Below, piece after piece: positions 47,043 to 55,761 of a stretch of DNA of 64,000 nucleotides; positions within the stretch are counted from its first letter, which is position 1, and each line of letters starts with the position of its first letter. Below the pieces are notes generated by a model that made no database searches, was not told where the DNA came from, and saw nothing but the letters and a program-made list of their open reading frames with translations. The translations under genes and the position numbers were made by a program. This DNA is from Thiomicrorhabdus sp. Milos-T2 (GTDB taxonomy: Bacteria; Pseudomonadota; Gammaproteobacteria; Thiomicrospirales; Thiomicrospiraceae). Location of the stretch: the NCBI RefSeq assembly GCF_000702325.1, contig NZ_KL370891.1, positions 1,138,917-1,202,916 of the forward strand. Reading direction: 5' to 3'.

Positions 47043-48340
47043 CACTAGTGTCCGGAATAATATTTCAGTACCACAATTCATATACCAGCCTCCCATAGCG
47101 GAAGTTGGTATTTCTTAAACTCTTCCCGTTGTTGTTTTCGCCTAAAGTATTCACTCTGCTGAATAGGTCTTTCAAACAACCCATGAGCAAGCCGCCAAAA
47201 CGTTACTCTCAACGGTTCTGCTGACTTATTTTTCATCTGTTCAAGCTTAATCAATAGATACACAATAAGGGCTGATAGCACTTGGATACGAACAGCATTA
47301 CTGTTTTGGCCAATGAAGCTTTTGATTTTGAGGTGTTGTTTAATCCATTTAAAAAATAATTCAATTTGCCAGCGTTGCTTGTATAGATGGGCAATCTCTT
47401 GAGCTGAACGCTCGAAGTCATTGGTAATCAATACCAATTCACCTTTATTATCGTCACGTTTGACAACAACACGGCGCATCTGGAATTGACCAAGACGTTT
47501 TTTCTGGCTTGAACCACTAAACTCAATGCATTGGTCTTCAAGAATATGAGGGGCTTTTTCATCGAGTTCGTAGGATTGTATGACGGTAATTGCCGCTCTT
47601 TTTTTCAAACGACAGACCAGCTTGATTTTTTGATCATTGAGCTTTTTCCACCAGAGGTAGTCTAAGTACCCTTTATCCATCACATAGGTTGAACCTGGTT
47701 CTAAATTCCACTCTCGTGCTTGAGTAATATCAGGAATATTGGCCTGTGTGATTTCAAAACAAACAGGGACTTGGTTGGATAGTTCTAGTTGCATATGCAG
47801 CTTAAAGCCTGTGACTCGAGAACCTTGTACTGCCCAGTCAAAACCTTTACCGAGCAGTTGAATTGGAGAAGAGTCTATTAGATAGGTAAAAGCGTGGAGT
47901 TCTTTTCGTAATTGTCGATTCACACCAGCCATGAGTTGTTGGCAAAGTGCTTGGTAGACATCAGCAGAGCGTTTACGGTTTGCTTCAGATAATGTGCTAC
48001 GTTTCAGCTCTTTTACGCCTAAGTGGTAGTGGTGAGAGGATTGGGCGTTAAACCCTTCAACCAACTGGCGTAATGATTTAGTGCCACTAAGTTGTGCGTA
48101 CATCATCGCGACTAATTGATTCCAGCTACTAAACCCTTTGGCGTGTTTGTCGGTTTGATATTGATGAACAAGTGATTGAAAAGTGGTACGAATGGGTTTT
48201 AAAAATTGGGCAAATCGGGTAGAGTTAAACACAGCCGTAATCTCATTGTTTTTGAAGTCTATTTCGTGGTGGAAATACTTCTATCCTAGGAGTTACGGCT
48301 TTTTTGTCAAGGCTTTTAATATTTATTCCGGACACTAGTG
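47043..48340. mobile_element. IS4-family insertion sequence, complete (1298 bp)
   Basis: Perfect 18-bp terminal inverted repeats (CACTAGTGTCCGGAATAA) bound one intact transposase gene, and 10-bp direct repeats CCAGGCCTGG flank it. The intact ORF, matching ends and exact duplication suggest a recent, functional insertion. Confidence 0.95.
47078..48232 (-). CDS. IS4-family transposase
   Basis: This 384-residue DDE transposase has acidic residues in YLIDSSPIQL and YVMDKGYLDYLWW, and the IS4 signature Y-x2-R-x3-E-x6-K complete in YKQRWQIELFFKWIK. The N-terminal part (FSSWNQLVAMMYAQLSGTKSLRQLVEGF) is a typical IS4-subgroup DNA-binding region. The reading frame is undamaged and lies fully within the 18-bp inverted repeats. 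It carries out cut-and-paste transposition of the element. Confidence 0.95.
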   Translation of the reverse strand: MFNSTRFAQFLKPIRTTFQSLVHQYQTDKHAKGFSSWNQLVAMMYAQLSGTKSLRQLVEGFNAQSSHHYHLGVKELKRSTLSEANRKRSADVYQALCQQLMAGVNRQLRKELHAFTYLIDSSPIQLLGKGFDWAVQGSRVTGFKLHMQLELSNQVPVCFEITQANIPDITQAREWNLEPGSTYVMDKGYLDYLWWKKLNDQKIKLVCRLKKRAAITVIQSYELDEKAPHILEDQCIEFSGSSQKKRLGQFQMRRVVVKRDDNKGELVLITNDFERSAQEIAHLYKQRWQIELFFKWIKQHLKIKSFIGQNSNAVRIQVLSALIVYLLIKLEQMKNKSAEPLRVTFWRLAHGLFERPIQQSEYFRRKQQREEFKKYQLPLWEAGI

Positions 48341-48353: not shown

Positions 48354-49013
48354 CTATTTATTTGGCGTGATTTTTACTAAAACACCAAATAATGGGTGGT
48401 CAATATAATGTAATTCACCCGGTTTTATTTTTCTTGATTCTTTAATGTTAAAGCGCCAATGAGTTGGAGCCTCTCCAGCAGAAATACCTTGATTTTGTGC
48501 AAATTTTTCTAAAATTTTAGAGGGGATACGACGTTCTAATTCTAAGTCAAAATCAACATGCGCAAAACGAGTTTTGTATAAACGCACCGTTCCTATTAAG
48601 TTAGCCCCTCTTTTTTGATCATTTTCAATTAGAACCGTTGGCGCTTTTTTATTGGCGTAAGCCAGTTGTGACCAGGCCTGGTGAAAGATAACGCGGTAAC
48701 CTCTTTTATTTAATTTCGCTTCTGTACCAACAAGACTTTGATTTCTGCGGTTTATCCATAATGGCTTTTGGTTACGAGTGAAGATAGAAGTGCTGTTTTC
48801 AGTAGAGGGTAGCTCTATTTGATCGGGCCAATGTTCTTCAGTCCAGCCTTTTAAGTTTAGATTTTCAAACACGATGACTTCAATTTTATAAGAGGGGACT
48901 TGCGCTTGCGCTTGCGATGTAAATAAGGCAAGGTTTGCAAACAAGATTGCAACTGCAAGTTGGTTTTTTAGAATTGATAAACGTTTGAAGGTTGACACTA
49001 TTTTATTAGACAT
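48354..49013 (-). CDS. CsiV-family exported protein
   Basis: This 219-residue protein has a signal peptide (about 1-38, ending F-T-S-Q-A-Q-A-Q). It then starts the conserved CsiV-like segment YKIEVIVFENLNLKGWTEEHWP and ends with HYIDHPLFGVLVKITP. CsiV-family proteins lie directly downstream of mfd in gammaproteobacteria, as here, and are reported as periplasmic peptidoglycan-related factors. The frame opens earlier at a TTG (49049), but the ATG at 49013 gives a normal signal peptide. The minus-strand transcript meets minC and the IS at its end. Confidence 0.78.
   Translation of the reverse strand: MSNKIVSTFKRLSILKNQLAVAILFANLALFTSQAQAQVPSYKIEVIVFENLNLKGWTEEHWPDQIELPSTENSTSIFTRNQKPLWINRRNQSLVGTEAKLNKRGYRVIFHQAWSQLAYANKKAPTVLIENDQKRGANLIGTVRLYKTRFAHVDFDLELERRIPSKILEKFAQNQGISAGEAPTHWRFNIKESRKIKPGELHYIDHPLFGVLVKITPNK
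48671..48682. repeat. ACCAGGCCTGGT palindrome, exact
   Basis: Exact copy in the csiV-like gene, encoding H-Q-A-W-S on the minus strand. Confidence 0.95.
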
Positions 49014-49085
49014 GTTTGACTCATAAAGCTTGTAGTAATAAATTTCCAATCAATCAATAGACTGAAAGGCTTTGTATTTAGACGG

Positions 49086-52529: not shown

Positions 52530-52658
52530 GCTTTTAGTGGATTCTTTGTCAAAAATTGAGCCCAATATTTTAAACTACTCGTACTTTTAAAACTGACTAA
52601 ATTATTAACAGAGCCTTGTAAGAGTTATAAATCATTAAATTTAGGCGTTACTTTCGGA

Positions 52659-52918
52659 GAGACCTTTGCACGAGATAGGTGCGAAAGAAAAATAGGCGTG
52701 AGTACCCCTTGAGGGTAAAAAATTTGCCTGATTCTCGACTTACCCCTTCGGGCGTCGAGTTCTTCGTTTGCGGCGGAAAACGCAGGGAATAGCTAGCTAT
52801 TCGCAAGTTGTCGCCCATCGGAAGTGCCCTTGGGGTACAACAAGAATCGGGTGAGTTTTTACCCTCAAGGGGCACCTAGAACCATTTTTACTCGTGCATA
52901 CTCTCGTGCAAAGGTCTC
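52659..52918. repeat. Enlarged 260-bp copy of the MITE/REP-like element (inverted orientation)
   Basis: It has the same ends (GAGACCTTTGCACGAG and its complement) and apex AATAGCTAGCTATT as the 159-bp copies, but in opposite orientation. About 50 extra bases are present in each arm: TACCCCTTGAGGGTAAAAA on the left and TTTTTACCCTCAAGGGGCA on the right are complementary, as are GATTCT and AGAATC. The hairpin is therefore longer, not broken. It fills most of the 413-bp region between divergent mfd and the RND-like gene, where promoters are expected. Confidence 0.92.
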
Positions 52919-52978
52919 TCTGAATTTAAGAATAGATAAATTTTTTAATAACAACTTGATTCAAAGGTTCTATGTGAG

Positions 52979-54199
52979 GTGAATGTGGGGAATTGGGCGT
53001 TTTCTTGGGTGCAGATTATGGCTCATAACAAAGCTAAGTTATTAACTACTTGGATAAGTGTTACCGTGTTAAGTTTACTGGGAATGGTAAATTTAGATGT
53101 TTCTAATGTATTAAATGATTTGGTTATCTTTGCGTTAAGTTTGCTTGTGATGAGTGCCGTTGTAGGTTATTTACTAGATTCTCCTAAGGTGGTTTTATTG
53201 CAACTGGGCTTGAGTGTTTATATTGCCTTTATGACATTTGGTGTGCTTGGGTGGTTGGGATATGCATTAAACCAGGAGTCTCTGCTTGGTTTGGTTGTGT
53301 TGATGACGATGTTAAGTAGCAACCTTGTTCATATTCTTAGTACGTTATTGCGCGAAATGGCCAGGGGATTGTTTCAATATGATGCTGTTGCAGAAGCCCT
53401 TAAATTAAACACGGCACCTATCTTTTTGTCTAACTTAACCACGGCACTAGGATTTGTTTTTGCTGCCTGGTTGGATTCTCAATACCTTGATTTAGCTTGG
53501 TTGGTTGTGGTTGGTGTTACTTTGAGTTTTTTAATTAGTATTAGCTGGCTTCCAATGGTTTTATTAAACTGGCTATTAGAGCTTAGAGTGGGTAATTCAT
53601 CTGATCGTCATGGTTTGACCTTTGTTGCAAAATGGTTAGAGAAAAAAACACTGTACCGAAAAATATTGACTATAACTGGCTGGTTGTTGGGTTTATTGTT
53701 AATAGGGCTTAACTTTTCTGCTTTAAAAGAGTTAGAGCAACTCTTTTGGTTAACGTTTTTATTTGCACTCTTATTTTGGTTTTTTTGGAAAAGTGTTAAG
53801 TTGGCTTTGTTAAATGTTTGGGTCAATTTACTGGCACTACTTTTAGCCATAACATTATTTTCCTGGTTTTCAGGGGAGGCTAATTGGAGCCTGTTAATAT
53901 GGATGGTTCCACTTGGATTGATTGTAGATGACGGTATCCACTTTTTTTCACGTTTTGCTCGCGCCAAATATACGTTATTTTCCGATCCAAAATCAGCCGT
54001 TATTTTTGCTATGGCAAGTGTTGGTCGTCCAATTTGGATTACCTCTTGGGTGCTTTTTTCTGGCTTAGCAGTTTTATTACTGAGTAATAATCAGTTGGTA
54101 AACCAGGCTAGCCAGTTAACCATGCTAGCGGTTGTAATAGCCACTTTTCTTATATTAACCGTGCTCCCAGCAATGTTAATGACAAAAAATAAACGTTAA
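52979..54199 (+). CDS. RND/MMPL-superfamily 12-helix membrane protein without porter domains
   Basis: This 406-residue protein appears to hold two six-helix repeats. Each first helix (about 20-37 and 229-246) is followed by only about 8-10 polar residues before the next helix, where RND pumps carry a large periplasmic porter domain. The second repeat keeps the proton-relay motif in GLIVDDGIHFFSRFARA (D317, D318), while the matching place in the first repeat reads SSNLVHILSTLLREMARG without acids. It could be a proton-driven transporter core or a structural remnant. The start is uncertain (GTG 52979, or ATG 53018). It stands alone, divergent from mfd. Confidence 0.7.
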   Translation: MNVGNWAFSWVQIMAHNKAKLLTTWISVTVLSLLGMVNLDVSNVLNDLVIFALSLLVMSAVVGYLLDSPKVVLLQLGLSVYIAFMTFGVLGWLGYALNQESLLGLVVLMTMLSSNLVHILSTLLREMARGLFQYDAVAEALKLNTAPIFLSNLTTALGFVFAAWLDSQYLDLAWLVVVGVTLSFLISISWLPMVLLNWLLELRVGNSSDRHGLTFVAKWLEKKTLYRKILTITGWLLGLLLIGLNFSALKELEQLFWLTFLFALLFWFFWKSVKLALLNVWVNLLALLLAITLFSWFSGEANWSLLIWMVPLGLIVDDGIHFFSRFARAKYTLFSDPKSAVIFAMASVGRPIWITSWVLFSGLAVLLLSNNQLVNQASQLTMLAVVIATFLILTVLPAMLMTKNKR

Positions 54200-54444: not shown

Positions 54445-55761
54445 ATGGCAACAGTAGTTGTAGTTGGTTCTAGTACCGGTGGTTTACCAATGTCTTACGA
54501 TATTCGTAAGCATTTAGACAAGGGTCATACTGTAAAAGTAGTAAACGCAATTGATGAATTTAACTTTGTTCCGTCTAACCCATGGGTGGCAGTGGGCTGG
54601 AGAAAACCAGAAGACATCTCATTTAAGCTTGAACCTTATTTAACACGCAAAGGTATTGAGTTTTACAACCAAACTTGTGTTGGTTTAGATGCTGATAATA
54701 ACAATATTACTTTAGATGATGGCACAGTAATGGATTACGATTACCTAATCCTTTCTACAGGTCCTTCTCTAGCATTTGACGAAGTTGAAGGTTTTGGTCC
54801 TAAGAGTCACGGTGGTAACACGGTTTCTGTTTGCACTACCGCACACGCTGTTGAAGCTTATGATCAATGGGAAGAGTTCTGCGCAAATCCAGGCCCAATA
54901 ATTATTGGAGCGGTACAAGGGGCTTCATGTTTCGGTCCTGCTTATGAGTTTGCCATGATTATGGAAACAGATTTACGTAAGCGTAAAATCCGTAGCCAAG
55001 TTCCTATGACTTTTGTTACTGCTGAACCTTATATTGGTCACTTAGGTTTAGGTGGTGTTGGTGATTCTAAAGGTTTAATGGAATCAGAAATGCGTAACCG
55101 TCATATTGAATGGATTTGCAATGCAAAGACAACCAAAATTGATGATGGAATCATGTATATTGATGAGCATAACAACCAAGGTGAAGTGATTAATAAGCAC
55201 GAGTTGCCATTTAAATATGCAATGATGCTACCTGCATTTAAAGGTTCTAAGTTCCTACAAGAATTAGTGGATGCAGATCCAGAAAAAATGGGTGGTCCAT
55301 TAGTTAATCCTCGTGGTTTTGTTAAGGTTGATAAATATAGCCGTAACCCGACTTATCATAATATTTACTCATTAGGTGTAGGTATTGCGATTCCTCCAGT
55401 TGATGCTAAGTGTCCTGTTCCTTGCGGTACACCTAAAACTGGTTTAATGATTGAGTCAATGGTGACTGCTATTTGCCATAACATTGAAGCGAACGTAGAA
55501 GGTAAAGAACCATACGAAGAACCTACTTGGAATACAGTATGTCTTGCTGATATGGGTGATTCTGGTGCAGCATTTGTTGCTCTTCCTCAAATTCCACCAC
55601 GTAACTTAACGTGGGCTAAGAAAGGTAAGTGGGTTCACTTAGCTAAAATTGCATTTGAGAAATACTTTATCCGTAATATGAAGTCTGGTAACTCTGAACC
55701 GATTTATCAGAAATACATTATGAAAATGTTAGGTATTACGCGTCTGAAATCAGATAAATAA
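54445..55761 (+). CDS. sqr: Sulfide:quinone oxidoreductase
   Basis: This 438-residue FAD enzyme oxidises sulfide to polysulfide or sulfur and reduces the quinone pool. The N-terminal dinucleotide motif is VVVGSSTGGLPMSYDI, a variant of GxGxxG. Redox cysteines are C162 (QGASCFGPAYEF) and C323/C327 (CPVPCGTPKTG). FVPSNPWVAVGWR follows the SQR pattern. The C-terminal amphipathic helices (about 390-430) would attach it to the membrane. The subtype cannot be fixed here, but it is not the two-cysteine-only core of type I by eye. A strong terminator follows; no sox genes are nearby. Confidence 0.9.
   Translation: MATVVVVGSSTGGLPMSYDIRKHLDKGHTVKVVNAIDEFNFVPSNPWVAVGWRKPEDISFKLEPYLTRKGIEFYNQTCVGLDADNNNITLDDGTVMDYDYLILSTGPSLAFDEVEGFGPKSHGGNTVSVCTTAHAVEAYDQWEEFCANPGPIIIGAVQGASCFGPAYEFAMIMETDLRKRKIRSQVPMTFVTAEPYIGHLGLGGVGDSKGLMESEMRNRHIEWICNAKTTKIDDGIMYIDEHNNQGEVINKHELPFKYAMMLPAFKGSKFLQELVDADPEKMGGPLVNPRGFVKVDKYSRNPTYHNIYSLGVGIAIPPVDAKCPVPCGTPKTGLMIESMVTAICHNIEANVEGKEPYEEPTWNTVCLADMGDSGAAFVALPQIPPRNLTWAKKGKWVHLAKIAFEKYFIRNMKSGNSEPIYQKYIMKMLGITRLKSDK

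Follow-up and report, generated by a model that had tools for sequence, protein, structure and literature searches.

The window, by which the whole 64,000-nucleotide stretch of Thiomicrorhabdus sp. Milos-T2 DNA analysed here is meant, contains at positions 52979-54199 (+ strand) a gene for a porter-less RND (HAE3/MMPL-like) membrane protein, for which the name X is used. The reading frame, of 406 aa, has a GTG start, and translation probably begins at the GTG at 52985, because orthologues share an N terminus at M-G-N-W. Near this terminus, the structural model places a helix (residues 5-16; 52991-53026, +) in which W6, W10, V11, Q12 and H16 are invariant in all 24 orthologues from the genus. 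On the cytoplasmic side are a conserved segment between TM4 and TM5 (residues 126-144, EMARGxxQxDAxAEAxKxN; 53354-53410, +) and the linker between TM6 and TM7 (residues 198-223, in which LExRVGxxxDRxG is conserved; 53570-53647, +). Within the membrane, N115 in TM4 (53321-53323, +) is the aligned equivalent of a D/N site in full-length relatives, and TM10 carries the acidic pair D317-D318 (53927-53932, +), a putative proton relay. Orthologues of X in the genus measure 402-442 aa and are shorter than full-length HAE3/MMPL proteins with porters. A truncation or sequencing artefact is ruled out, since 24 of the 32 genus genomes have open frames of 404-468 aa with this architecture. A promoter and terminator scan gave no signal above that of shuffled sequences. 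Directly upstream (52648-52929) lies a palindromic, MITE-like repeat of ~260-280 bp that occurs in at least 40 places in this genome, that copy included, at 80-100% identity (the best 40 of 280 candidates).

X resides between a divergent mfd and a gene for sulfide:quinone oxidoreductase (SQR; 54445-55761, +), its constant neighbour in the family, with a putative functional link. The SQR matches the solved SQR structure 3sz0 (E 1.4e-147), which comes from Acidithiobacillus ferrooxidans. Beyond SQR are a YadS-like gene, with an NCBIfam PRK10578.1 match under the cut-off, and then genes read as LolC/E, LolD and ABC-F. The mfd-lolCD gene order is old in Gammaproteobacteria, and a link of X to Lol transport, considered on the basis of the nearby lolC/E and lolD genes (our own reading), was set aside for that reason. 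In Thiomicrospira crunogena the neighbouring locus tags presumably include Tcr_1170, which two papers name as an SQR; the other three presumed neighbour tags are not mentioned in the open-licence literature searched. On the far side of mfd, in most loci, is a csiV-like gene (our own reading; window 48354-49049) with a signal-peptide-like start, which here adjoins an IS4-family transposase gene (47078-48232). In one genome, X and SQR are followed within a few kb by a 1255-aa RND gene with its flanking genes (L043 13706-19335).

Predicted fold and absence of the porter domains

The AlphaFold2 model of X (17 sequences; pLDDT 88.5, pTM 0.88) begins with the short N-terminal helix 5-16, which is followed by twelve long membrane helices (residues 18-38, 42-65, 69-93, 101-128, 133-165, 167-197, 224-244, 246-270, 273-298, 305-333, 337-366 and 372-401) and includes two short linker helices (207-211 and 214-222). 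A Sulfurivirga orthologue (L046) that is 40% identical to X has, in its own model, helices as in X (pLDDT 91.8). In comparisons with VIA-align, the top structural match of the X model is SecDF (3aqp_A; Z 40.0, 377 residues, 2.6 A), and AcrB (7b5p_C; Z 38.9, 391 residues, 3.1 A) and MmpL5 (9mw0_D; Z 38.8, 393 residues, 3.0 A) are also matched; for the Sulfurivirga model, the Z values are 39.5 (SecDF), 38.4 (Patched), 38.2 (MmpL5) and 37.5 (AcrB). By these predicted models and structure comparisons, X possesses the RND-type 12-helix core, made of two 6-helix repeats in RND topology. A sequence-only reading of the gene had proposed just such an RND-like protein, with twelve helices and without both porter domains, and had named a non-RND fold or a smaller number of helices as evidence against itself; structure prediction and fold search returned neither, and the proposal stands.

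At the level of sequence, Pfam MMPL matches residues 277-402 of X (E 6e-6; 25.9 bits versus a cut-off of 20.5) and reaches E <= 0.01 in 17 of the 24 orthologues. The NCBIfam HAE3 model 2A067 matches with E 4.7e-13 and 48.1 bits, far under its cut-off of 351.9, and the SecDF NCBIfam model gives 13.3 bits versus a cut-off of 1037, that is, X is not part of the SecDF sequence family. No solved structure matches X by sequence better than E 0.07, and the viral structure library contains no match at E <= 0.001.

The large periplasmic porter domains that would follow TM1 and TM7 are both absent from X. In its model, helix 1 ends at 38 and helix 2 begins at 42, with 3 residues in between, and a single residue separates helix 7 (to 244) from helix 8 (from 246); there is no periplasmic domain. 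X proteins have 44-56 residues before TM2 (47 in this X) versus 219-241 (~224) in full-length relatives, and 33-35 residues from the start of TM7 to TM8 (34 in this X) versus 211-215 (~212), in counts that leave out other RND classes (L002, L031, L043), rows truncated at a locus end (L026, L027, L029) and those lacking an aligned column. In each half ~178 residues are gone, at two identical places, in all 24 genus orthologues, among which the earlier reading had suggested looking for the same loss. Its description of short loops and missing porter domains is thereby upheld, and its sizes are corrected: the loops, put at 8-10 residues, have 3 and 1 in the model, and the domains, put at ~300 residues, correspond to a loss of ~178 per half.

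The nearest full-length kin of X by these searches are transporters of ~760-800 aa (hereafter ~780-aa), each half of which matches X separately at ~28-37% identity. Motifs common to X and these kin are A-N/D-x-x-H in TM4 and VDDxxH in TM10. Assignment of the kin to HAE3/COG1033 rests on their length, on gene context and on the match of X to the HAE3 model; the sequence of AmeD itself is outside the comparison. The ~780-aa RND gene adjoins a LolA-like gene in nine of nine loci (with a small ORF between them in two), and a gene read as an outer-membrane protein is also nearby in eight, the ninth locus (L110) ending at a contig edge. PF17131 (LolA_like) was confirmed by scan in two cassettes (E 4.5e-65 and 2.4e-65), whose outer-membrane proteins have no Pfam match, and was found by genome search for the six cassettes from the window's genus. 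These AmeD-like cassettes, composed of RND, LolA_like and predicted outer-membrane protein genes, occur in several genomes of the genus (for example, L106 5320-9764 and L107 5376-9753), where most adjoin genes read as HslR-like and HemF-like. The described system of this kind is AmeABCD of Castellaniella defragrans, which exports monoterpenes (PMC6394551). No cassette of the AmeABCD type, with LolA-like periplasmic and outer-membrane partners, surrounds X, which is instead flanked by mfd, SQR and the YadS-like, LolC/E and LolD genes. The window's genome, which is 99.99% complete, has no match to PF17131 and no AmeD-type RND among its matches to the X profile, and X is therefore not a subunit of such a system there. 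Within the genus, an AmeD-like pump is encoded in 3 of 24 genomes with X versus 5 of 8 without it (Fisher p 0.012, kinship ignored). The idea that X is a stand-in for the full-length pump was rejected, the corresponding value over the family being p 0.12 (kinship ignored).

Residues of the relay type found in TM4 and TM10 across the RND superfamily are present in X, where their role in proton movement is putative, as judged from the alignment. D317 is invariant in the 24 genus orthologues and D318 is kept in 23 (Glu in L024); N115, H118 and H321 are invariant in all 24. The earlier observation that relay aspartates occur in the second half only is thus accurate for X. The accompanying notion, that surviving and missing aspartates record the reduction, is not supported by the full-length kin. 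Among 17 distinct relatives (the subset with loci examined, not every relative found), all 17 have VDD in TM10; at the TM4 site, 8 of them have N although their porters are intact, and the other 9 have D, all but one of these 9 belonging to the window's genus. The half-site pattern is also seen in full-length kin and is therefore no sign of reduction. With the fold and the relay residues in place and the porter domains missing, X is therefore classed as a porter-less variant built on an RND core, rather than as an RND exporter.

Distribution, origin and selection

Within the window's genus (g1), 24 of 32 genomes carry X, and the family as a whole has it in 40 of 62, with 11 copies in g3, 1 in g4, 3 in g5 and 1 in g7; the 40 include a copy cut by a contig end (G050) and one split over two contigs (G028). 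The 22 family genomes from which it is absent comprise 8 from g1, 4 from g2, 1 from g5 and all 9 from g6, and in one of the 22 (G002) a remnant containing stops persists between SQR and mfd (L096 8314-9013). These absences, together with the remnant, indicate that X is dispensable. In g6 (G052-G060), 8 of the 9 genomes have no SQR of the type that neighbours X at E <= 1e-60.

A search of 369 genomes of the class gave 124 with a match at E <= 1e-18; among the matches listed (at most the best five candidates per genome), the full-length ones belong to three family genomes, and none outside the family covers more than ~220 of the 405 model positions. In a search of 398 genomes of the phylum (at most the best four candidates per genome), the window's own genome alone passes E <= 1e-30. 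A scan of 84,980 species genomes with two short peptide patterns, which distant porter-less forms would escape, found 20 loci, 17 of them in the family (one truncated at a contig end), the others being 3 partial matches from Myxococcales. The taxa among these loci are Thiomicrorhabdus, Hydrogenovibrio, Thiomicrospira, Sulfurivirga and unplaced Thiotrichales, Piscirickettsiaceae and Gammaproteobacteria bins. In the genomes searched, X is restricted to one bacterial family.

In a tree that omits rows with more than 35% gaps (L002, L031), the 24 X rows stand apart from the other 18 with modest support (0.88); the 17 AmeD-like relatives form a cluster with support 0.997. This topology is consistent with a single origin of X, short of proof. 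Three of six orthologue pairs tried were usable for a selection test and gave dN/dS values of 0.103 (dS 0.23), 0.097 (dS 1.19) and 0.064 (dS 1.35); a fourth gave 0.051 with dS near saturation, and the two remaining pairs were saturated and left unused. X is under purifying selection. Among the papers listed by searches of the open-licence literature, none concerns a porter-less RND. X represents a real, conserved, reduced branch of RND proteins and, so far as these searches reach, a new variant within a known superfamily, with a putative function.

Distribution of constraint and possible roles

Sidedness of the positions in X was assigned from the RND fold (predicted topology), and the positive-inside rule is kept, with 23 K+R on the cytoplasmic side versus 1 on the periplasmic side. 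In counts from which duplicates, other RND classes and columns with less than 60% occupancy were dropped, mean conservation of X is 0.726 for cytoplasmic, 0.652 for middle and 0.560 for periplasmic positions (one-sided p 4e-10); the values for the 17 relatives are 0.702, 0.742 and 0.732, respectively (p 0.89). The bias in X survives when membrane helices alone are considered, when TM1 and TM7 are dropped, or when nine hand-picked diverse sequences are used (two-sided p 2.5e-4 to 4e-6), and the relatives display no overall bias under those restrictions (p 0.36 or higher). Helix by helix, the cytoplasmic third of X is the more conserved in 9 of 12, the exceptions being TM1, TM3 and TM7. Nine relatives lean likewise in TM4, TM8, TM10 and TM12, and the change is therefore clearest in TM2, TM6, TM9 and TM11, and in how deep the loss goes in TM8. 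In RND pumps, TM2 and TM8 connect to the porters through their periplasmic thirds; conservation there is 0.365 (TM2) and 0.322 (TM8) in X versus 0.673 and 0.689 in the nine relatives (with three comparable columns in TM8). Conservation is retained in TM4, TM5, TM10 and the cytoplasmic part of TM11. Among 73 positions kept in at least 23 of the 24 orthologues, 53 are cytoplasmic (of 185), 11 are in the middle (of 94) and 9 are periplasmic (of 124). This polarity could arise partly from a lost porter interface rather than from a gained cytoplasmic role.

Computed for X, then, are the predicted complete 12-helix RND fold, a loss of ~178 residues in each half, purifying selection and, in the genomes searched, restriction to one family; the aspartate pair of TM10 is kept, and constraint has moved to the cytoplasmic side. 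The reading that we prefer, at a probability of roughly 0.45, is that X is an RND variant without porters, in which the proton-relay core has come to work at the cytoplasmic face or in the inner leaflet. Most likely, X descends from an HAE3/COG1033 (AmeD-like) exporter of lipids or other hydrophobes through loss of both porters, probably once. Its core would still move protons by way of D317/D318 (TM10) and N115 (TM4), changing shape meanwhile. Such movement would no longer be coupled to periplasmic export, because a porter duct is missing and the periplasmic helix ends have lost constraint; a coupling to something on the cytoplasmic face or in the inner leaflet may have taken its place. Conceivably, a hydrophobic small molecule is passed on within the membrane, or a protein partner in the cytoplasm is bound via the N-terminal helix, the TM4-TM5 segment and the TM6-TM7 linker. 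More tentatively, X might be an RND-derived engine turned inward, a porter-free device, powered by PMF or sensing it, that drives or reports to a cytoplasmic partner and is not an exporter. The pattern suggests that the engine of an export pump has been reused, in a sulfur-oxidising lineage, for a job facing the inside of the cell.

The usual account of RND function is one of porter domains powered at a distance by a core that conducts protons. Such a core, occurring naturally and under selection but lacking porters, would make it possible to ask directly whether proton movement and shape change need nothing beyond the core, and what else it can drive. X also provides a natural contrast between the positions that lose constraint in the absence of a porter, most markedly those at the periplasmic ends of TM2 and TM8, and those that keep it, namely TM4, TM5, TM10 and the cytoplasmic segments.

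Comparison with known systems sets X apart in several ways. HAE3/COG1033 (AmeD-like) kin keep both porter domains, each half being ~178 aa longer than in X, whereas X has neither. SecDF is a proton-driven RND core with periplasmic domains of its own that works with Sec; X lacks any periplasmic domain, and the two are 15% identical over the structural alignment (3aqp). Structures of MmpL3, MmpL4 and MmpL5 match the X model with Z 37-39, and MmpL proteins, unlike X, have both porter domains. According to PDB titles, structures of MmpL5 with the acyl carrier protein AcpM exist. AcpM sits on the cytoplasmic side, and the pair may offer, by analogy, a precedent for a partner protein on an RND core. 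Sterol-sensing-domain proteins such as SCAP and HMG-CoA reductase use RND-type helices for sensing and have no porter domains. Unlike these proteins, X retains both 6-helix halves and, in the Pfam scan, gives no match to PF12349 at E <= 1; both full-length relatives of X that were scanned are matched by PF12349.

It is possible, if unlikely, that X still transports, as a minimal proton-coupled flippase or carrier that would move a small hydrophobic molecule across the inner membrane or between its leaflets without a cytoplasmic protein partner. The predicted RND core is complete with its acidic pair, and hydrophobic molecules are the substrates of HAE3 kin that have been described, with monoterpenes moved by AmeD and hopanoids by HpnN (PMC6394551). 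However, the periplasmic helix ends are the least conserved part of X, and the highly kept positions are mostly (53 of 73) on the other side. Less probable still is an action of X together with the neighbouring SQR, for instance to handle sulfur or polysulfide or to position SQR at the membrane. SQR follows X in 40 of 40 genomes: in 39 it is the next gene downstream, on the strand of X and 138-532 bp away (median 224), and in G028 contig ends fall between the two. X never occurs without SQR; mfd is on the other side of X in all 24 loci read that reach far enough (at least one genome being represented twice). Moreover, in three of the seven loci read that have SQR and no X (G017, G025, G056), SQR is away from its usual place at the mfd start. 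Against this, the Fisher p of 2e-5 for the association ignores kinship, 13 genomes have SQR and no X, and mfd and SQR stay adjacent without X in the other four of these loci, with nothing of it between them in G010, G018 and G033 and the remnant in G002. The adjacency is weak evidence and says little about function, because the mfd-SQR block is old and able to outlive X.

The earlier suggestion that X is a partner subunit, with its porter domains supplied in trans by another protein, is not favoured and appears very unlikely. AmeD-like kin do work with separate periplasmic and outer-membrane proteins (PMC6394551), and the csiV-like gene beyond mfd could from its signal-peptide-like start be thought a source of such a protein. 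That gene stays beside mfd in the X-less genomes G002, G010, G025 and G033, however, and is therefore not tied to X; the gene neighbours of X recur in genomes without it, the window's genome offers neither an AmeD-type RND nor a LolA_like match, and the periplasmic faces of X are unconserved. Hardly tenable, finally, is the view of X as a decaying RND gene heading to loss. Its absence from 22 of 62 family genomes and the remnant beside SQR in G002 fit such a course, but this is contradicted by dN/dS values of 0.06-0.10, by 47 invariant columns among the 24 orthologues, and by equal length and coverage across five genera.
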